The notes under the pieces are model-generated. The model saw only the letters and a program-made list of their open reading frames with translations. It did no database searches and was not told the origin of the DNA. From NCBI GenBank assembly GCA_016900015.1, contig JACJJM010000002.1, positions 1 through 64,000 on the forward strand: 64,000 nt of DNA, written 5' to 3'. The translations under genes were made by a program, and so were the position numbers. Positions 32,479-42,046 of this stretch are shown piece by piece. The stretch's first letter is position 1. Each line of letters starts with the position of its first letter. This stretch comes from Phocaeicola coprophilus (GTDB lineage: Bacteria; Bacteroidota; Bacteroidia; Bacteroidales; Bacteroidaceae).

Positions 32479-32549
32479 GGTTCCTTGACCGAGTGGCTAG
32501 GTAGCGGTCTGCAAAACCGTCCACGGCGGTTCGAATCCGCCAGGAACCT
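32479..32549 (+). tRNA. tRNA-Cys (GCA)
   Basis: 71 bases. Acceptor arms GGTTCCT and AGGAACC, anticodon loop CTGCAAA (anticodon GCA), T arm GGCGGTTCGAATCCGCC, discriminator T as usual for tRNA-Cys. CCA is not encoded. Confidence 0.95.
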
Positions 32550-32571
32550 CTCTCTGAAAATGCGGAGGGAA

Positions 32572-32659
32572 GGAAGTTTGGGTGAGTGGCTGAAACCAGC
32601 AGTTTGCTAAACTGCCGTACGGATTTCCCGTACCGGGGGTTCGAATCCCCCAGCTTCCG
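32572..32659 (+). tRNA. tRNA-Ser (GCT)
   Basis: 88 bases, with the long variable arm of class II tRNAs (CCGTACGG...CCCGTACCG). Acceptor arms GGAAGTT and AGCTTCC, anticodon loop TTGCTAA (anticodon GCT), T arm GGGGGTTCGAATCCCCC, discriminator G. Confidence 0.95.
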
Positions 32660-32672
32660 CAACGTATAAGAA

Positions 32673-32744
32673 GGCGCTTTCGTCTAGCGGCTAGGACACA
32701 TGCCTCTCACGCATGGAACACGGGTTCGATTCCCGTAGGCGCTA
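32673..32744 (+). tRNA. tRNA-Glu (CTC)
   Basis: 72 bases. Acceptor arms GGCGCTT and AGGCGCT with a G-U first pair, anticodon loop CTCTCAC (anticodon CTC), T arm CGGGTTCGATTCCCG. Confidence 0.93.
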
Positions 32745-32939: not shown

Positions 32940-34793
32940 ATGAAGAAGTTGTTATATACGTTGGCTTTCTGTCTTTTAAGCCAGCCTTTAGCATGGGCTG
33001 GTGACATTTGGGTATCCCCGACAGGTAATGATAATAATAAAGGTGCGCGCGAGGCTCCTTTTCAGACCATAGAAAAAGCTGTAAAGCAAGCTCGTGAATG
33101 GCGGCGACTTCATAATCCTGAAGCAAATGGTGGTATATATATTCATTTGACTGAGGGTGTATACTTTCAGGAAAAAACTTTGTTTCTTCGTCCCGAAGAT
33201 AGTGGAACAGCTCAAAGTCCGACAGTGATAGAATCGGAGGGTAGAGCTGTGATTAGCGGTGGTTTGCAAGTTACAGGTTGGAAACCGCTTGCAGATGTTG
33301 ATTCTCGATTGGCGGATTCGGTGCGGAATAAAATCTGGATAGCTGAAGCTCCGCGCATTGGCAATCGTCATTTGGAATTTCGCCAGATGTGGGTGAATGG
33401 AAAGAAAGCTCAGCGGGCTTCTCAGTTTGCCGATGGTGTGATGGAACGTATGTTGAATTTTAACCCCCAAGAACAGACGATTACCATACCTACTCCAAAA
33501 GTGAAAGGACTGGAGGATGCCTCATCGTTGGAAATGATTGTTCATCAACGTTGGGCGATAGCGATTCTTCGAGTGAGGAGTATGGAGGCAAGAGGTGATT
33601 CGACGATTGTGCGTTTTCATGAACCTGAGAGCCATTTAGAGTTTGCTCATCCCTGGCCTCAGCCTGTGATTGGTGGGGAAAAAGGCAATTCTTCTTTTTG
33701 CTTGGTCAATGATCTTGCCCTGCTTGACGAACCGGGTGAATGGTATCAGGAATATCCTTCCGGGCGAATTTATTATTATCCTCGTGAGAATGAAGATATG
33801 AGTCAGGCTACGGTCATTGCCCCGGCGTTAGAAAAATTGGTAATGGTGGATGGTTCGTTGGAACGTCCAATACAACATATTCAGTTCCGGAATGTTCATT
33901 TTGAACATGCAGCATGGAATCGGCCATCTTATGAAGGGCATGTCACGTTACAGGGCGGTTTTCGTTTGTTGGATGCTTATAAACTTGCGATTCCCGGATT
34001 GCCGGAAAAGGCTTCTTTGGAAAACCAGGCATGGATAGCCCGTCCGGAGGCTGCAATCACGGTAAAAGGCTCCAATCATATAGATTTTGATGGTTGCGTG
34101 TTCCAACACATGGGTGCTACAGGACTCGATTATGAGTGGGCTGTAAGTGATTCGAAGGTGAGTTCATGTCGGTTTACGGATATCGGGGGTTCGGCGTTGC
34201 TTATCGGTGCCTTTCCTGATGGCGGATTTGAGACACATGTTCCTTTTAAGCCGGTTAACATGGAAGAGTTATGTTCAGATATTCAAATTCAAGACAATCT
34301 AATCACAGAAGTAACCAATGAAGATTGGGGATGCGTCGGCATAGGAGCGGGCTATGTGAAGGATATAACGATTTCTCATAATGAAGTTTCTTATGTGAAC
34401 TATTCGGGTATTTGTGTTGGTTGGGGTTGGACTCTTCTGGAGAGTGGCATGAGAAACAATCGCATAGAAGCTAACTATGTACATCATTTTGCGCAACGTC
34501 TGTATGATGCCGGAGGCTTGTACACATTATCTTATCAGCCGGGGTCAGTGATGTGTAATAACCGTATTGAACATTTGGTGGATGCACCTTATGCGACGAA
34601 TGACCGCGCATTCTATATCTATTTTGATGAAGCAACGGATGGTTATACAGTAGAGAATAATTGGTGTCCTGAAGAACGGTTTGATTCAAATCAACCAGGC
34701 CCACATAATGTGTGGAAAGTGAATGGACCCAATGTAGACGAGGCTATTAAGATGCAAGCTGGTATAAGAAATCGTAACTCAAAACAATATTAA
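32940..34793 (+). CDS. Secreted right-handed beta-helix glycosidase/lyase-like protein (GH141/GH120-like)
   Basis: 617 residues with signal peptide (LAFCLLSQPLAWA). It opens with DIWVSPTGNDNNKGAREAPF and TIEKAVKQAR, the entry to parallel beta-helix enzymes such as GH141 (alpha-L-fucosidase/xylanase) and GH120 (beta-xylosidase). It continues with many short beta turns rich in Asn, Gly and His (SNHIDFDGCVFQHMGATGL, ISHNEVSYVNYSGICVGWG). I cannot choose between the families or name catalytic residues with certainty. It would act in the periplasm or at the surface on a plant or host glycan. An 18-base gap leads to a GH31 gene, so the two are probably co-transcribed. Codon use is more AT-rich than in the flanking housekeeping genes. 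Confidence 0.8.
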   Translation: MKKLLYTLAFCLLSQPLAWAGDIWVSPTGNDNNKGAREAPFQTIEKAVKQAREWRRLHNPEANGGIYIHLTEGVYFQEKTLFLRPEDSGTAQSPTVIESEGRAVISGGLQVTGWKPLADVDSRLADSVRNKIWIAEAPRIGNRHLEFRQMWVNGKKAQRASQFADGVMERMLNFNPQEQTITIPTPKVKGLEDASSLEMIVHQRWAIAILRVRSMEARGDSTIVRFHEPESHLEFAHPWPQPVIGGEKGNSSFCLVNDLALLDEPGEWYQEYPSGRIYYYPRENEDMSQATVIAPALEKLVMVDGSLERPIQHIQFRNVHFEHAAWNRPSYEGHVTLQGGFRLLDAYKLAIPGLPEKASLENQAWIARPEAAITVKGSNHIDFDGCVFQHMGATGLDYEWAVSDSKVSSCRFTDIGGSALLIGAFPDGGFETHVPFKPVNMEELCSDIQIQDNLITEVTNEDWGCVGIGAGYVKDITISHNEVSYVNYSGICVGWGWTLLESGMRNNRIEANYVHHFAQRLYDAGGLYTLSYQPGSVMCNNRIEHLVDAPYATNDRAFYIYFDEATDGYTVENNWCPEERFDSNQPGPHNVWKVNGPNVDEAIKMQAGIRNRNSKQY

Positions 34794-34811: not shown

Positions 34812-37055
34812 ATGAGACCAACAAACTATCATTTATTTGACTTCATGGACTTTGACCTGGAGCTTTCGAAGAATGAATCTTTATGGAAAGCTTGCAAGCC
34901 AACGGCTGTGTATGAAAAGGATGGCGATGTATATATTACAGTTCCTTTTCAGAAGCAAGTCTTGTCCAATGACATGGCTGCCGACACTTCGGTTCCTCGT
35001 GAAGAATACACATTGATTCTTCGTCAATATAGCAACAAAATAATTCGTTTGTTTTGTGGTTTTGGAGATTGGGAGATGACAGACCAGTCTGAAATGCTTC
35101 AATTTAGTGAACGTGTACAAAAACTTCCTTTGCAGGTAAAGGCTGGTGATGGTGAATGGACTATATATTCGGCTGACGGTGTACGCCGTGCTTGGATTAA
35201 TGTGAAAGAACCTAAGTTGGACCATTGGAGCGATCTGTTGCCTGCTCCTCAGGAAACGTTGGATGTGGTGGTATATCCGGATGGTAAGCGCGAAATTCAT
35301 CTGGCTGCTTATGATCATTTTTCACCCCCACGTTATGATGGACTGCCTTTGGTCTATTGTGTTAAGGACGGGCATAAAGAGCGTGCAACGTTATCCTTTG
35401 AGTGTAAGGCTGATGAATGTTTTGCCGGCACAGGTGAACGCTTTACAAAAATGGATTTGAGTGGGCATACATTCTTCTTGAAGAATCAAGATGGGCAAGG
35501 TGTAAACAATCGCCGGACCTATAAAAATATACCATTCTATCTTTCTAGCCGTATGTATGGCACATTCTATCACACATGTGCTCACAGCAAACTTTCTTTG
35601 GCCCATGTGTCGACGCGCTCGGTCGAATTCTTAAGCGATCAGGCAATGATAGACGCTTTCATTATCGCCGGAGACACCGTTGAGGAAATTTTGCGTGGCT
35701 ATCGGGACTTGACCGGCTATCCTTCGATGCCTCCGCTTTGGAGTTTTGGCATTTGGATGAGCCGTATGACCTATTTTAGTGCAGACGAGGTGGATGAAAT
35801 CTGCAATCGTTTGCGTGCTGAACATTATCCTTGTGATGTGATTCACTTGGATACGGGATGGTTCCGTACAGACTGGTTGTGTGAGTGGAAGTTCAATGAA
35901 AAGCGTTTCCCTGATCCAAAAGGTTTTATCCATGGTCTGAAAGACAAAGGCTTCCGGGTGTCTCTTTGGCAGTTGCCTTATGTGGCTGAGGATGCAGAAC
36001 AGATTGATGAAGCTCGTAAGAATGATTATATTGCTCCTTTAACTAAGCAGCAAGCTTCTGAAGGTTCCAATTTTTCAGCTTTGGACTATGCAGGAACTAT
36101 AGACTTTACTTATCCTAAAGCTACGGAGTGGTATAAAGGGCTATTGAAAAATCTGCTCGATATGGGAGTAGTCTGTATAAAGACTGACTTTGGGGAAAAC
36201 ATTCACATGGATGCAAAGTACAAAGGCATGTCTCCTGAGTTGCTCAATAATCTTTATGCGTTGCTCTACCAAAAGGCCGCTTATGAGGTTACAAAAGAGG
36301 TGACAGGAGATGGCATCGTATGGGCGCGTGCGGCTTGGGCTGGTTGCCAGCGCTATCCGCTCCATTGGGGAGGTGATTCATGCAGTTCCTGGGATGGTAT
36401 GGCTGGCTCGCTGAAAGGTGGTTTGCATTTCGGATTGTCTGGCTTTGCTTTTTGGAGTCATGACGTACCCGGATTCCACACATTGCCCAATTTCATGAAT
36501 TCGATTGTTGATGATAAAGTCTACATGCGATGGACACAGTTTGGCGTCTTTTCATCGCATATGCGCTATCATGGGACTAATAAGCGCGAACCATGGTTCT
36601 ATCCGGCCATAGCTCCGATGGTGAAGAAATGGTGGAAGTTGCGTTATAAACTTCTGCCTTATATTTATGAACAAAGTAAAAAAGCCACTCATAGCGGATA
36701 TGCTGTGCTTCGTGCATTGATTTTCGAACATCCTGCAGACAAAATGTGTTGGCACATTGACGATGAATATTATTTCGGAGATGATTTCCTGGTGGCACCG
36801 GTGATGAACAGTGAGGACTGTCGTGATGTCTATTTGCCGGAAGGCGAGTGGGTGAACTTTTTCACGGGAGAGCACTTCCGAGGTGGACAATGGCTCAATG
36901 GCGTCAAAGTTCCTTTGGACGAAATGCCGGTTTATGTGCGTGAAGGCGCAGTGATTCCTGTTTATCCGGAAGACGTCGACTGCACAGACGAGATGGATTT
37001 GGACAAGAGCGTGGCATTGAAGATTGATGAACATTTCAGAGGTATCTGGAAATAG
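34812..37055 (+). CDS. GH31 alpha-glycosidase, alpha-xylosidase (YicI)-like
   Basis: 747 residues without a signal peptide, so cytoplasmic. The GH31 (beta/alpha)8 domain has the nucleophile Asp459 in CIKTDFGENIH and the acid/base Asp522 in HWGGDSCSSWDGM, spaced much as in E. coli YicI (416 and 482). KTDFGE is the form seen in alpha-xylosidases. YicI-type enzymes release alpha-linked xylose from the non-reducing end. In this locus it would act on an imported oligosaccharide downstream of the secreted beta-helix enzyme and next to a corrinoid methyltransferase, so methylated xylosides are possible substrates (inference). Confidence 0.88.
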   Translation: MRPTNYHLFDFMDFDLELSKNESLWKACKPTAVYEKDGDVYITVPFQKQVLSNDMAADTSVPREEYTLILRQYSNKIIRLFCGFGDWEMTDQSEMLQFSERVQKLPLQVKAGDGEWTIYSADGVRRAWINVKEPKLDHWSDLLPAPQETLDVVVYPDGKREIHLAAYDHFSPPRYDGLPLVYCVKDGHKERATLSFECKADECFAGTGERFTKMDLSGHTFFLKNQDGQGVNNRRTYKNIPFYLSSRMYGTFYHTCAHSKLSLAHVSTRSVEFLSDQAMIDAFIIAGDTVEEILRGYRDLTGYPSMPPLWSFGIWMSRMTYFSADEVDEICNRLRAEHYPCDVIHLDTGWFRTDWLCEWKFNEKRFPDPKGFIHGLKDKGFRVSLWQLPYVAEDAEQIDEARKNDYIAPLTKQQASEGSNFSALDYAGTIDFTYPKATEWYKGLLKNLLDMGVVCIKTDFGENIHMDAKYKGMSPELLNNLYALLYQKAAYEVTKEVTGDGIVWARAAWAGCQRYPLHWGGDSCSSWDGMAGSLKGGLHFGLSGFAFWSHDVPGFHTLPNFMNSIVDDKVYMRWTQFGVFSSHMRYHGTNKREPWFYPAIAPMVKKWWKLRYKLLPYIYEQSKKATHSGYAVLRALIFEHPADKMCWHIDDEYYFGDDFLVAPVMNSEDCRDVYLPEGEWVNFFTGEHFRGGQWLNGVKVPLDEMPVYVREGAVIPVYPEDVDCTDEMDLDKSVALKIDEHFRGIWK

Positions 37056-37124: not shown

Positions 37125-38930
37125 ATGAATACATGGAAAAAAAATATGGAAGAAACCAAGCAACACTACATTGATTGGTGGAACCATAAAGGCATTGTGC
37201 TGAACATGTGGGAACATTTTCAGGAAGGAGTAACTCCTCATGCTGATGTTCCGGCACCGGCTCCTCCCAAGGATTTAAATCAAAAATGGTTTGATCCTGA
37301 ATGGCGCGCGGCTTATTTGGATTGGTATGTTGCGCATAGTTCGCTTTTGGCAGATATGTTGCCTGTGGCTAATACCCAACTTGGTCCAGGCTCGCTGGCT
37401 GCAATTCTAGGAGGTGTATTTGAAGGAGGAGAGGACACCATTTGGATTCATCCTAATCCGAATTATACAGATGACATCAAGTTTGACCCTGACAACAATG
37501 CGGCTTGGAAATTGCACAAGGATTTGCTGCGTGCATGTAAAGAGAAAGCGCAAGGGCATTATTATGTGGGTATGCCCGACTTGATGGAAGGGCTTGATGT
37601 GTTGGCTGCCATCAAAGGGACAGACAAGGTGTTGCTCGACACCGTGATGCAACCGGAGGTGCTCGAACACCAGATGCAGCAGATTAACGACATCTATTTC
37701 CAGGTGTTTGATGAATTGTATGACATCATACGCGAAGGTGACGAGATGGCTTTCTGTTATTTCTCATCTTGGGCTCCTGGAAAGATGACAAAAATCCAAA
37801 GTGACATATCGACCATGATTAGCGAAGAAGATTATCGTCGTTTTGTGCAACCTTTCATTCGTGAGCAATGCCAGAAGATCGACTATACACTCTATCATCT
37901 CGACGGAGTGGGTGCGATGCGTCACTTGCCGGCTCTGTTAGAGATTGAAGAATTGAATGCGATTCAGTGGACACCCGGTGTGGGCGAACCGCAAGGAGGC
38001 TCGCCGAAGTGGTATGATCTCTACAAACGTATCTTGGCAGGCGGTAAGAGTATCCTGGCTAGTTGGGTGACGGTGGATGAATTGAAACCATTGCTTGACA
38101 ATATCGGTGCTGACGGCGTGCATTTGGAAATGGATTTCCACAACGAGCGTGAGGTGGAACAAGCTATGCGTATCGTGGAAGAGTATAGAAGCTCATCTTC
38201 ATCAACAACATCAAAGACAAATACAGAACAAGTTAAAGAACAACAAACCATGCAGGACGAAACGATTCATGTACAGGCTTCTCAACAAGAGGACGAGGAG
38301 CTGAAACCTTTATTTGACGCGATTGTAGCCGGAAAATTGGAGCCGGCAGTAGAAGTGACTAAGAAAGCTATTGAAAAGGGTGTTCCCCCTCAAGTCATCA
38401 TCAATAATTACATGATTAAGGCGATGGGCGAAATCGGCCAACGTTTTCAGGATGGCAAGGCTTTCGTGCCCCAACTCTTGATGGCCGGACGGGCAATGAA
38501 GGGTGCATTGGAGCTGCTGAAGCCACTTTTGCAAGGGAATGCGTCAGCCACTATCGGCCGTGTAGTCATCGGGACAGTGAAAGGAGATTTGCATGACATT
38601 GGTAAGAATCTTGTGGCTTCCATGCTTGAAGGATGTGGATTTGAAGTAATCAACATAGGCATTGATGTACCTGCCGAGAAGTTTGTGCAGGCTGTGGAGG
38701 AAAATCATGCTGACATCCTCTGCATGAGTGCATTGCTGACGACGACAATGACCTACATGAAGGATGTGATTGACGCTGTGAAGGCAGCTGGCATTCGTGA
38801 CAAAGTGAAGATCATGGTTGGCGGTGCTCCTGTAAACCAGGCTTTCGCCGATGAGATTGGTGCTGATGGTTACAGCGACAATGCCAACTCAGCCGTACAG
38901 GTGGCCAAACATCTGATTGGAGCAGCATAA
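37125..38930 (+). CDS. UroD-fold methyltransferase fused to corrinoid-binding protein
   Basis: 601 residues in two parts joined by a Ser/Thr/Gln-rich linker (~352-388). Residues 1-350 are a uroporphyrinogen-decarboxylase-fold methyltransferase of the MtaA/CmuA kind. The position where thiol-directed members carry His-x-Cys zinc ligands reads YHLDGVGAMRH, so the zinc site is not evident. Residues ~388-475 are the helical cap (B12-binding-2), and ~478-600 the Rossmann domain with the cobalamin His in GDLHDIGKN (Asp488, His490, Gly493). The fusion can take a methyl group from a substrate to bound corrinoid in one chain. Neither a second methyltransferase to tetrahydrofolate nor a reductive activator is in the window. 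Its place beside glycosidases and a symporter suggests O-demethylation of a methylated sugar. Confidence 0.87.
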   Translation: MNTWKKNMEETKQHYIDWWNHKGIVLNMWEHFQEGVTPHADVPAPAPPKDLNQKWFDPEWRAAYLDWYVAHSSLLADMLPVANTQLGPGSLAAILGGVFEGGEDTIWIHPNPNYTDDIKFDPDNNAAWKLHKDLLRACKEKAQGHYYVGMPDLMEGLDVLAAIKGTDKVLLDTVMQPEVLEHQMQQINDIYFQVFDELYDIIREGDEMAFCYFSSWAPGKMTKIQSDISTMISEEDYRRFVQPFIREQCQKIDYTLYHLDGVGAMRHLPALLEIEELNAIQWTPGVGEPQGGSPKWYDLYKRILAGGKSILASWVTVDELKPLLDNIGADGVHLEMDFHNEREVEQAMRIVEEYRSSSSSTTSKTNTEQVKEQQTMQDETIHVQASQQEDEELKPLFDAIVAGKLEPAVEVTKKAIEKGVPPQVIINNYMIKAMGEIGQRFQDGKAFVPQLLMAGRAMKGALELLKPLLQGNASATIGRVVIGTVKGDLHDIGKNLVASMLEGCGFEVINIGIDVPAEKFVQAVEENHADILCMSALLTTTMTYMKDVIDAVKAAGIRDKVKIMVGGAPVNQAFADEIGADGYSDNANSAVQVAKHLIGAA

Positions 38931-39104: not shown

Positions 39105-40673
39105 ATGAATGTGAAATTTTTGGAACCTCTTGACTGGGCCATTTTGGCTGCGTACTTCATCATTTTGATGGGCATCGGCATTTGGGCCAGTTTGAAACGT
39201 AAGAAAGGAAGTAGCCTGTTCATGGCCGAACACTCCTTAAGCTGGTATCACATCGGTTTCTCCATGTGGGGGACGAATGTTGGTCCGTCTATGCTGATAG
39301 CTTCGGCTAGTGCGGGATTCACGACGGGTGTGGTGTCGGGCAACTATGCTTGGTATGCGTTTGTCTTCATTTGCCTGTTGGCGTTTGTTTTTGCTCCGCG
39401 CTATTTGGGGGCAAAAGTCACGACGTTGCCGGAGTTTATGGGACGACGCTTCGGACAGTCGACTCGAAACATTCTGGCATGGTACACCATTGTGACCATC
39501 CTCATTTCCTGGCTCGCGCTGACGCTCTTTGCCGGAGGCATCTTGATACGCCAGATATTTGACATCCCCATGTGGCAGTCAGCCTTGATACTGTTGCTGG
39601 TATCGGCATTTTTCACCATAGCCGGAGGACTGAAGGCTGTGGCTTATACGAATGTCTACCAGATGGTGTTGCTCATTGTGGTGTCGGCAGCGCTGACCAT
39701 TGTCGGATTGGTCAAGGTGGGAGGAATTGATGGCCTGGTGGCTGCCGTTCCGTCTGATTATTGGAACATGTTCCGTCCGAATGATGACCCTGCTTTCCCG
39801 TGGTTGCCTATTCTTTTGGGCTACCCCATCATGGGTGTCTGGTTTTGGTGTACCGATCAGTCAATGGTGCAGCCGGTGTTGGCAGCCAAAAACTTGAAGC
39901 AAGGACAGTTGGGCGCGAATCTGACGGGTTGGTTAAAGATTCTCGATGTGCCTTTGTATATCGTTCCGGGCATCATCTGTTTTGCTCTTTTTCCCACACT
40001 TCAGAATCCTGATGAAGCCTACATGACATTGGTCACCAATCTTTTTCCTGTGGGCATGGTCGGCATGGTGATGGCCGTTTTGACGGCTGCATTGGTCAGC
40101 ACGGTAGGTTCGGCATTGAATGCGCTCAGCACGGTGTTTACCATTGACATTTACATGAAATATCGTCCGAAAGCTTCAGAAAAAGAGATGATTAGTGTCG
40201 GACGTCTGGTGACGGTGGTCGGTGCCATCATATCCATTGTGATTTGCATTGCCATCGATAGCATCAAAGGACTTGATTTGTTCAATGTCTTCCAGTCTGT
40301 ACTTGGATTCATAGCTCCTCCTATGGCAGCCGTGTTCTTGTTTGGCGTGTTCTGGAAGCGTGCGACGACGCGTGCTGCCAATTTCGCGCTGACTTTCGGA
40401 ACGGCTTTCAGCCTTCTGGTCGGTGTGCTTTATTTGTGGGTCTTTCCTTCAGAGGACTATCCCGGCGTATGGCCTCATTTCATGATGCTTTCGTTCGACC
40501 TCTTTGTGGCTATCAGTGTCGGCATGTTTATCATCAGCATGTTTGAGAAGAAGCCTCAAGGGAATGCTTTGGATTATGGCACGTTGCCCAAGCCTTCTTC
40601 TTCCGTTGTCGTGTTGTGGGTACTGCTGATTTTGGTGATGATAGCTCTCTATACGTTCTTCAACGGACATTAA
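39105..40673 (+). CDS. Sodium/solute symporter (SSS, SGLT-like)
   Basis: 522 residues with about 13-14 membrane helices. SSS-family landmarks include DWAILAAYFIILMGIGIWAS, the SSTADFFLAG-like region (KGSSLFMAEHSLSWYHIGFSMWGTNVGPS, given in part), TNVYQMVLLIVVS and the sodium-site region LTAALVSTVGSALNALSTVF. The branch is that of sugar transporters (SGLT, vSGLT). It is predicted to import a monosaccharide or small glycoside with Na+. It follows the corrinoid methyltransferase by 174 bases and a terminator, so it may have its own promoter. Confidence 0.9.
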   Translation: MNVKFLEPLDWAILAAYFIILMGIGIWASLKRKKGSSLFMAEHSLSWYHIGFSMWGTNVGPSMLIASASAGFTTGVVSGNYAWYAFVFICLLAFVFAPRYLGAKVTTLPEFMGRRFGQSTRNILAWYTIVTILISWLALTLFAGGILIRQIFDIPMWQSALILLLVSAFFTIAGGLKAVAYTNVYQMVLLIVVSAALTIVGLVKVGGIDGLVAAVPSDYWNMFRPNDDPAFPWLPILLGYPIMGVWFWCTDQSMVQPVLAAKNLKQGQLGANLTGWLKILDVPLYIVPGIICFALFPTLQNPDEAYMTLVTNLFPVGMVGMVMAVLTAALVSTVGSALNALSTVFTIDIYMKYRPKASEKEMISVGRLVTVVGAIISIVICIAIDSIKGLDLFNVFQSVLGFIAPPMAAVFLFGVFWKRATTRAANFALTFGTAFSLLVGVLYLWVFPSEDYPGVWPHFMMLSFDLFVAISVGMFIISMFEKKPQGNALDYGTLPKPSSSVVVLWVLLILVMIALYTFFNGH

Positions 40674-40762: not shown

Positions 40763-42046
40763 ATGTCGGCTATGAAATATTTCTTCATTTTATTCTTTTT
40801 TCTGTGCAGCCTCTTTTCCTACGGGCAATTGATACGTGTCGGGGAAGGATATAGCCAGACGTCGGTGAACACGGCGGTCTTTCGGAATGCATCGTTGGTG
40901 ACTGATGGCGGCACACAGTATGTTGCTTTTTACGACCCTGACGGTTACGTTGTGCTGGGCAAGAGGTCGCTGGATGATTCGGAGTGGACGCTGGAGCGTT
41001 CGCCCTATCAGGGACATGTTGCTGATGCGCATAATGTCATCAGTATGATGGTCGACGGAGATGGGTATGTCCATGTGGCCTTTGATCATCACGGCGGTCG
41101 GTTGAATTATTGTCGGAGTGTAGCTCCCGGCTCTTTGCGCTTAGGAGACAAAGAGCCGATGACGGGTGTCGACGAAGATGACGTGACTTATCCGGAGTTT
41201 TATCGCATGCCGGACGGAGGTTTGCTTTTTGCTTATCGTTCAGGAGCTTCAGGCAAGGGAAACTTGGTCATGAACCGTTATGACCTTCGCACCCGTCGCT
41301 GGGAGCGTGTGCAGGATGTGCTCATCGACGGCGAGGGACAGCGCAATGCCTATTGGCAACTCTTTGTGGATGGACGAGGTGTTATCCATGTCTCGTGGGT
41401 CTGGCGTGAGACGTGGATGGTGGAGACCAATCATGATTTGTGCTATGCTTGTTCGCCCGATGGCGGGAAGACTTGGTATAAATCGACAGGGGAGCCATAC
41501 ACCCTTCCCATTTGTAAGGACAATGCTGAATACGCCTGCCGCATACCTCAGGACAGTGAACTTATCAATCAGACCAGCATGTGCACGGATGCAGCAGGGC
41601 ATCCCTACATTGTGACTTATTGGCGGGATGCTGGGAGCGACGTCCCGCAGTATCGTCTGGTGTGGCATGACGGCCGGCAATGGAATGTGCGTCAAATCAT
41701 GCAGCGTCATCAGCCTTTCTCTCTGAAAGGCGGGGGTACGAAGATGATACCGATAGCCCGTCCGCGCATTGTGGTGGATGGTGACAGGGCCTATTTCATA
41801 TTCCGTGACGTTGAGCGGGGTAGTAAGGTTTCGATGGCCTATACGGATGATTTGAGACAAGGCCGTTGGGACGTGAAGGATTTGACTGACTTTTCCGTGG
41901 AAGCTTGGGAGCCGAGTCTCGACACAGAGTTGTGGAAGCAGCAGAAGCGCCTGCACATTTTTGTGCAGACCACTTATCAGGGTGACGGCGAACGCACGGT
42001 TGACCATGCGCCGACACCGGTCTATGTGCTACAGGTAGAGCTGTGA
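40763..42046 (+). CDS. Secreted BNR-4 repeat beta-propeller protein, probable polysaccharide lyase or glycosidase
   Basis: 427 residues with a signal peptide (MKYFFILFFFLCSLFSYGQ; starts at 40763 or 40772). The body has propeller-type repeats, among them DAHNVISMMVDGDGYVHVAFDHHG, RNAYWQLFVDGRGVIHVSWVW and HDLCYACSPDGGKTW, the last an Asp-box-like turn. This is the BNR_4 family, which includes seven-bladed ulvan and related uronate lyases. The DHHG stretch could hold a catalytic His, as in those lyases. Substrate unknown; its place at the end of the glycan locus suggests removal of a uronate or rhamnose-linked residue. Confidence 0.82.
   Translation: MSAMKYFFILFFFLCSLFSYGQLIRVGEGYSQTSVNTAVFRNASLVTDGGTQYVAFYDPDGYVVLGKRSLDDSEWTLERSPYQGHVADAHNVISMMVDGDGYVHVAFDHHGGRLNYCRSVAPGSLRLGDKEPMTGVDEDDVTYPEFYRMPDGGLLFAYRSGASGKGNLVMNRYDLRTRRWERVQDVLIDGEGQRNAYWQLFVDGRGVIHVSWVWRETWMVETNHDLCYACSPDGGKTWYKSTGEPYTLPICKDNAEYACRIPQDSELINQTSMCTDAAGHPYIVTYWRDAGSDVPQYRLVWHDGRQWNVRQIMQRHQPFSLKGGGTKMIPIARPRIVVDGDRAYFIFRDVERGSKVSMAYTDDLRQGRWDVKDLTDFSVEAWEPSLDTELWKQQKRLHIFVQTTYQGDGERTVDHAPTPVYVLQVEL

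Follow-up and report, generated by a model that had tools for sequence, protein, structure and literature searches.

Several described systems pair a methyltransferase I (MTI or MT1) of the uroporphyrinogen decarboxylase (UroD) superfamily with a corrinoid protein, among them the acetogen corrinoid O-demethylases (MtvB/OdmB/VdmB-MtvC type) and CdmBC (PMC13222342). In these systems a methyl ether or halide is cleaved by Co(I), and a carboxylate or no metal ligand is allowed in place of Cys (PMC13222342, PMC10418091). In the chloromethane methyltransferase CmuA the two components, an N-terminal UroD MTI and a C-terminal corrinoid domain, make a single chain. Here we describe another one-chain protein, encoded in a stretch of 64,000 nt from Phocaeicola coprophilus (assembly GCA_016900015.1, contig JACJJM010000002.1, positions 1 to 64,000 of the forward strand; hereafter ‘the window’). 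On balance this protein probably serves as MT1 and corrinoid carrier in the B12-dependent O-demethylation of a methyl-ether sugar from rhamnogalacturonan II (RG-II), most likely 2-O-methyl-D-xylose, as judged from sequence and structural modelling. The likeness to CmuA is one of architecture; CmuA, unlike the window protein, belongs to aerobic chloromethane users. In contrast to the acetogen O-demethylases and CdmBC, the window protein has MTI and corrinoid protein fused and a predicted sugar-ether substrate, while its system has a predicted thiol acceptor instead of tetrahydrofolate and a candidate activator of MetH type instead of a RACE-type one. The features of the gene, all on the forward strand, are as follows.

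37125..38930, + strand, open reading frame of the UroD-fold/corrinoid fusion, ATG start, 601 aa, intact
37125..38189, + strand, UroD-fold methyltransferase half (residues 1-355), assigned by AlphaFold2 fold match, proposed methyl-sugar:corrinoid methyltransferase (MT1)
37893..37907, + strand, Y257-H258-L259-D260-G261, H-x-D at the place of the H-x-C zinc motif of MtaA-type enzymes, assigned by motif and fold
38190..38297, + strand, disordered Ser/Thr/Gln linker (about residues 356-391), delimited by model confidence, the site of a MetH-type domain in Prevotella homologues
38298..38927, + strand, corrinoid-binding half (residues 392-601), cap and Rossmann domain (PF02607, E 3e-21; PF02310, E 5e-30)
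38592..38594, + strand, codon of His490, the predicted lower cobalt ligand in GDLHDIGKN, assigned from sequence

The reading frame is not a chance one, since 222 relatives of its product were found in genome contigs. In the AlphaFold2 model (mean predicted local distance difference test score, pLDDT, of 86) the N-terminal half adopts a UroD TIM-barrel fold, with residues 1-359 matching HemE (6w2o, Z 20.1 across 301 residues) and MtaA (4ay7, Z 19.6 across 296 residues); the fold is thus common to the window barrel, the MtaA/MtbA methylcobalamin:thiol methyltransferases and the Mlp proteins. The Pfam scan of the window proteins gave no match for this half, URO-D included, and the profile of the barrel family gave zero matches to PDB sequences. 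The corrinoid half contains the Pfam domains B12-binding_2 (residues 394-466) and B12-binding (residues 478-591), and its top PDB match is the Moorella corrinoid protein 1y80 (phmmer E 3e-57). Residues 359-388 between the two halves are rich in Ser, Thr and Gln and have pLDDT below 50. The fold, the Pfam domains and the disordered stretch bear out the original prediction, made from the letters of the window, that a substrate methyltransferase and a corrinoid protein are joined in one chain by a Ser/Thr/Gln linker.

The cobalamin-binding His, said in that prediction to be retained, is indeed present in GDLHDIGKN, and the string DLHDIGKN recurs in 76 of 78 near-full-length homologues. Loss of the thiol-type HxC motif had been claimed as well, and the family agrees: the window protein does not match the HxC...C zinc site of the MtaA/MtbA type and has HLDG instead, a string found in all 78 homologues (first scan) and kept even in a 26%-identical relative adjoining a GH31-like gene. 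We equate HxD with HxC from the motif and the fold rather than from structures aligned residue by residue; when the window barrel was compared by hhalign with the family of thiol-type UroD proteins, the probability was 0.4 and no useful alignment resulted. A third ligand might come from the position immediately before the next conserved Trp; 71 homologues have Cys there and seven have Ser, as does the window protein, so a fixed third-ligand Cys is not kept in the family. UroD-type S-methyltransferases have His-Cys-Cys, while O-methyltransferases swap Cys for a carboxylate or for non-ligands (PMC10418091). Since HxD in place of HxC fits this rule, an oxygen substrate is suggested, in support of the earlier expectation of a non-thiol methyl group.

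No substrate had been named in the original prediction; the genes around the fusion suggest methyl sugars of RG-II. The neighbours of the fusion gene are listed below.

32940..34793, + strand, GH141 enzyme with a signal peptide predicted by eye only, relative of BT1002 (GH141_M, E 3e-67; 5MQP), proposed to release 2-O-methyl-D-xylose-alpha-1,3-L-fucose (2-O-Me-Xyl-alpha-1,3-Fuc)
34812..37055, + strand, GH31 glycosidase without apparent signal peptide, YicI/alpha-xylosidase-like (5F7C, 1514 bits)
39105..40673, + strand, Na+/solute symporter of the SSS family (PF00474, E 2e-56; TIGR00813 above cut-off), proposed to import the methylated sugar or disaccharide
40763..42046, + strand, BT3686-type alpha-L-rhamnosidase, BNR_4 (NF052497, 776 bits, cut-off 700)

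The order GH141, GH31, methyltransferase, SSS recurs, mostly unchanged, in dozens of Bacteroidales loci, with mostly short or overlapping gaps between the GH31 and methyltransferase genes. Across 81 locus sets (80 relatives and the window) the partners were GH31 in 57, GH141 in 55, the SSS symporter in 50, a short MetH-activation-like protein in 48 and a thiol-type UroD protein in 46. The window GH141 enzyme, the only close GH141 in its genome, aligns end to end with 5MQP (BT_1002; 589 bits, residues 17-610). BT1002 is the founding GH141 and frees 2-O-Me-Xyl-alpha-1,3-Fuc from chain A of RG-II (PMC10154630).

We took the BT_1020 propeller family PF24067 as a marker of RG-II use. Among 295 Bacteroidales genomes, the methyltransferase was present in eight (identity of at least 59%, with two additional weak matches left out of the count) and the marker in 15, these including all eight (hypergeometric 5e-12, with shared ancestry ignored). 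A sample of 150 Bacteroidaceae genomes gave the same complete overlap, 8/8, with eight methyltransferase and 18 marker genomes (chance 8e-9, shared ancestry again ignored), so that in the pooled samples 16/16 methyltransferase genomes carry the marker. The link is also seen at the level of loci. A BT_1020-like gene and a GH78 gene lie just upstream of the methyltransferase in a Prevotella-type locus (L049); in genome G064 a BT_1020-bearing cluster (L110) is contiguous with the one that holds the methyltransferase (L102); and on another contig of the window's genome (C81) BT_1020, GH78, GH95 and GH43 genes are clustered. To our knowledge, the only D-xylose in RG-II is the 2-O-methylated one; an alpha-xylosidase-like gene therefore suggests 2-O-methyl-D-xylose when it occurs in an RG-II context. 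The structure matched by the window GH31, 5F7C, is near-identical to the Bacteroides faecis GH31, and we take it to be BT_0339.

The same B12-dependent logic might serve another methyl ether of RG-II, chiefly 2-O-methyl-L-fucose, which RG-II also contains, or the intact disaccharide before GH31 acts on it. A fucose isomerase in some loci (L048) and a sugar-dehydrogenase/amidohydrolase set, with a weak L-fuconolactonase match, that recurs near Prevotella loci would suit such a substrate; still, we consider it unlikely, because GH31 and GH141 of the conserved operon suit the Xyl-Fuc disaccharide and no member of GH139, the family of 2-O-Me-fucosidases, was observed there. The ‘Mta’ annotation suggests instead methanol freed by pectin methylesterases, or some other small methyl donor. 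Methanol is released in pectin breakdown, and BT_0340 of Bacteroides thetaiotaomicron is annotated as a methylamine/methanol-type corrinoid protein, yet a methanol demethylase is improbable here, as the corrinoid half fell under the MtaC, MtbC and MtgC cut-offs in the model scan, the barrel has a UroD fold, different from that of the MtaB family, and the operon partners are glycosidases and a symporter with a link to RG-II. A demethylase for methoxylated aromatics on or alongside cell-wall polymers seems less probable still: although the known UroD-type MTI enzymes MtvB, OdmB, VdmB and MtoB use methoxy-aromatics (PMC13222342) and the corrinoid half is closest in PDB to the Moorella protein, no aromatic-pathway genes were seen in the annotated loci, and both the 16/16 tie to the RG-II marker and the GH31, GH141 and sugar-pathway neighbours speak for a sugar.

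The fate of the methyl group is suggested by the homologues. In at least 60 of the 78, mainly from Prevotella, the barrel is separated from the corrinoid half by a MetH-type homocysteine methyltransferase domain with the motifs GGCCGT and G-x-NC. In the L049 protein this domain is Pfam S-methyl_trans (residues 406-701, E 3e-82), and in the model of that protein the domain superposes on human MTR (4ccz) at Z 35.6, the identity being 39%. The G064 methyltransferase cluster (L102) has a stand-alone S-methyl_trans (homocysteine methyltransferase) gene, and in other Bacteroidales (L100, L101) barrel and corrinoid protein are encoded by separate genes close together. From the fused relatives, the methyl acceptor is probably a thiol, with homocysteine as the probable one. 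Like MetH, the Prevotella homologues have a homocysteine domain followed by cap and cobalamin domains; unlike MetH, they have no folate domain (no pterin-binding domain was reported by Pfam in the L049 or the window protein) and carry a UroD-fold barrel at the N-terminus, and the window protein is also without the homocysteine domain. Gain or loss of that domain needs four changes for the ‘long’ label in a quick, unfinished tree, and the strongly supported branches permit one. A genome-wide look for a MetH-like acceptor, proposed with the original prediction, gave one PF02574 domain in the window's genome, that of MetH. Beside the separate methyltransferases of L101 (7613-8674, by eye) and L102 (10630-11676, by Pfam) there is a Gfo/Idh/MocA oxidoreductase gene, perhaps for the freed sugar.

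Partner proteins were expected to be encoded elsewhere in the genome, and candidates were found together on contig C199, where a thiol-type UroD gene and a short MetH-activation-like gene lie side by side (L083, 1411-3109). The C199 UroD protein keeps the classical HxC...C motif in place of the HxD of the window protein, and its top PDB match is MtaA (4ay7, E 3e-20). The PF02965 protein, split off from MetH, is the candidate reactivator; MetH of the window's genome is without an activation domain, as is MetH of B. thetaiotaomicron (PMC7311316). In a set of 31 genomes, 16 with the methyltransferase and 15 without, PF02965 proteins fell into two classes, full-length and short divergent. The full-length class was rejected as a dedicated partner because it is general, nearly every one of the 31 genomes having such a protein. 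The short class was found in 15/16 genomes with the methyltransferase and 0/15 without, and the same counts were obtained for the thiol-type UroD protein (Fisher 6e-8 in each case). Since 9/15 methyltransferase-negative genomes have the RG-II marker, both partners follow the methyltransferase and not RG-II use. The RACE-type ferredoxin activator anticipated in the original prediction is ruled out in this genome by the absence of PF14574, the activator candidate being of the MetH type instead. The C199 pair lies directly 3′ of glyA, which ties both genes to one-carbon metabolism.

The existence of a thiol-type UroD partner might be taken to favour a non-catabolic B12-dependent thiol methyltransferase, or a sensor, that merely sits in the operon. 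This is the least probable of the readings considered: HxC is missing from the window barrel, and the family as a whole has retained HLDG and the corrinoid His.

For the methyl-sugar O-demethylase we propose the following route. Outside the cytoplasm GH141 would free 2-O-Me-Xyl-alpha-1,3-Fuc, which would then enter through the SSS symporter and be cleaved by the cytoplasmic GH31. The UroD half would then position the methyl ether, with His258 and Asp260 perhaps aiding the oxygen in leaving, and Co(I) of the corrinoid half would take up the methyl. From there a second methyltransferase would move it to a thiol, probably homocysteine, to give methionine; in Prevotella this step would most likely be carried out by the built-in MetH-type domain, and in the window species by the HxC...C UroD protein from C199 or by MetH in trans. 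Reactivation of oxidised cobalt would fall to the dedicated MetH-activation-like protein encoded beside the gene of this second UroD protein and would involve no RACE protein. Taken as a whole, the system could be an O2-free sugar-ether:homocysteine methyltransferase, similar to methionine synthase but with a methylated plant sugar as donor instead of methyl-folate, single-chain in Prevotella, that finishes gut RG-II degradation by consuming the 2-O-methyl-xylosyl-fucose left over by B. thetaiotaomicron; this fuller picture is tentative, and we put it at a little short of even odds. B. thetaiotaomicron was reported to cleave 21 of the 22 RG-II linkages, all but 2-O-Me-Xyl-alpha-1,3-Fuc (PMC7939467).

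Several observations weigh against the methyl-sugar O-demethylase. The adjacent B. thetaiotaomicron genes BT_0338, BT_0339 and BT_0340, described respectively as GH141 (PMC8264420), alpha-xylosidase (PMC10434189) and corrinoid protein (PMC8941943), appear from these descriptions to resemble the window operon, and yet cultures of this species build up 2-O-Me-Xyl-alpha-1,3-Fuc, the linkage of which it reportedly cannot cleave (PMC7939467). It is mainly for this reason that we hold the probability of the O-demethylase reading at about 0.6; either the operon was silent in those cultures or its substrate differs. Furthermore, BT_0340 was not captured by a B12 probe (PMC8941943). The window GH31 scored 478 bits with the alpha-xylosidase model, under its cut-off of 606. 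The window protein has no homocysteine-binding domain, its acceptor being predicted from relatives, and the C199 pair, which co-occur with the gene, are putative B12 partners with predicted reactions. Rfam gave no cobalamin riboswitch in the window or in seven loci, the window matches being tRNAs only. As for expression, BT0339 showed a roughly two-fold change with a weak p-value in an iron-availability experiment (PMC10434189), and BT_0338 was up together with BT_1002 and BT_0984 in co-culture with Akkermansia (PMC8264420).

The modules of the proposed system are known one by one. The open-licence literature that we searched describes neither their combination nor a sugar-ether substrate or homocysteine acceptor of the kind predicted here. 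Nor is anaerobic removal of methyl ethers from sugars described there, the route found being that of P450s and oxygen. In marine Bacteroidota P450 demethylases act on 6-O-methyl-galactose, the same task as proposed here of freeing a methyl-ether sugar for catabolism (PMC8360166). The P450 route is oxidative and yields formaldehyde, whereas the proposed route would be O2-free and the methyl would be kept. RG-II is present in most plant food. If the proposal is true, plant methyl-sugars would be both a carbon source and a source of the methionine methyl group, fibre use would be tied to vitamin B12, and the use by anaerobes of sugars once thought to be left over would be explained.

Searching 395 genomes across the phylum gave the window's own genome as the sole match, so the family is apparently largely confined to Bacteroidales. 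One contig labelled Paenibacillus (L068) has a locus that is typical of Bacteroidales and similar to the L055 one, and it probably comes from a mis-binned metagenome-assembled genome. In the window, three tRNA genes (32479-32744) lie just 5′ of the GH141 gene; the rhamnosidase gene downstream of the SSS gene is unclustered and not recurrent in other loci. Several Prevotella loci (L042, 1793-3756; L046; L060) have nearby genes for an aldo/keto reductase, an amidohydrolase and a Zn-dehydrogenase, a set that resembles oxidative fucose breakdown. The window's genome also has a second adjacent pair of UroD-like genes (L109, 7605-8666 and 8691-9815, on G000:C176), possibly a second demethylase. The first gene of this pair has a 59% homologue near the methyltransferase in L104, and close to the pair are genes for a DapA-family aldolase and for an SSS symporter, relatives of which flank the methyltransferase in some Prevotella loci.
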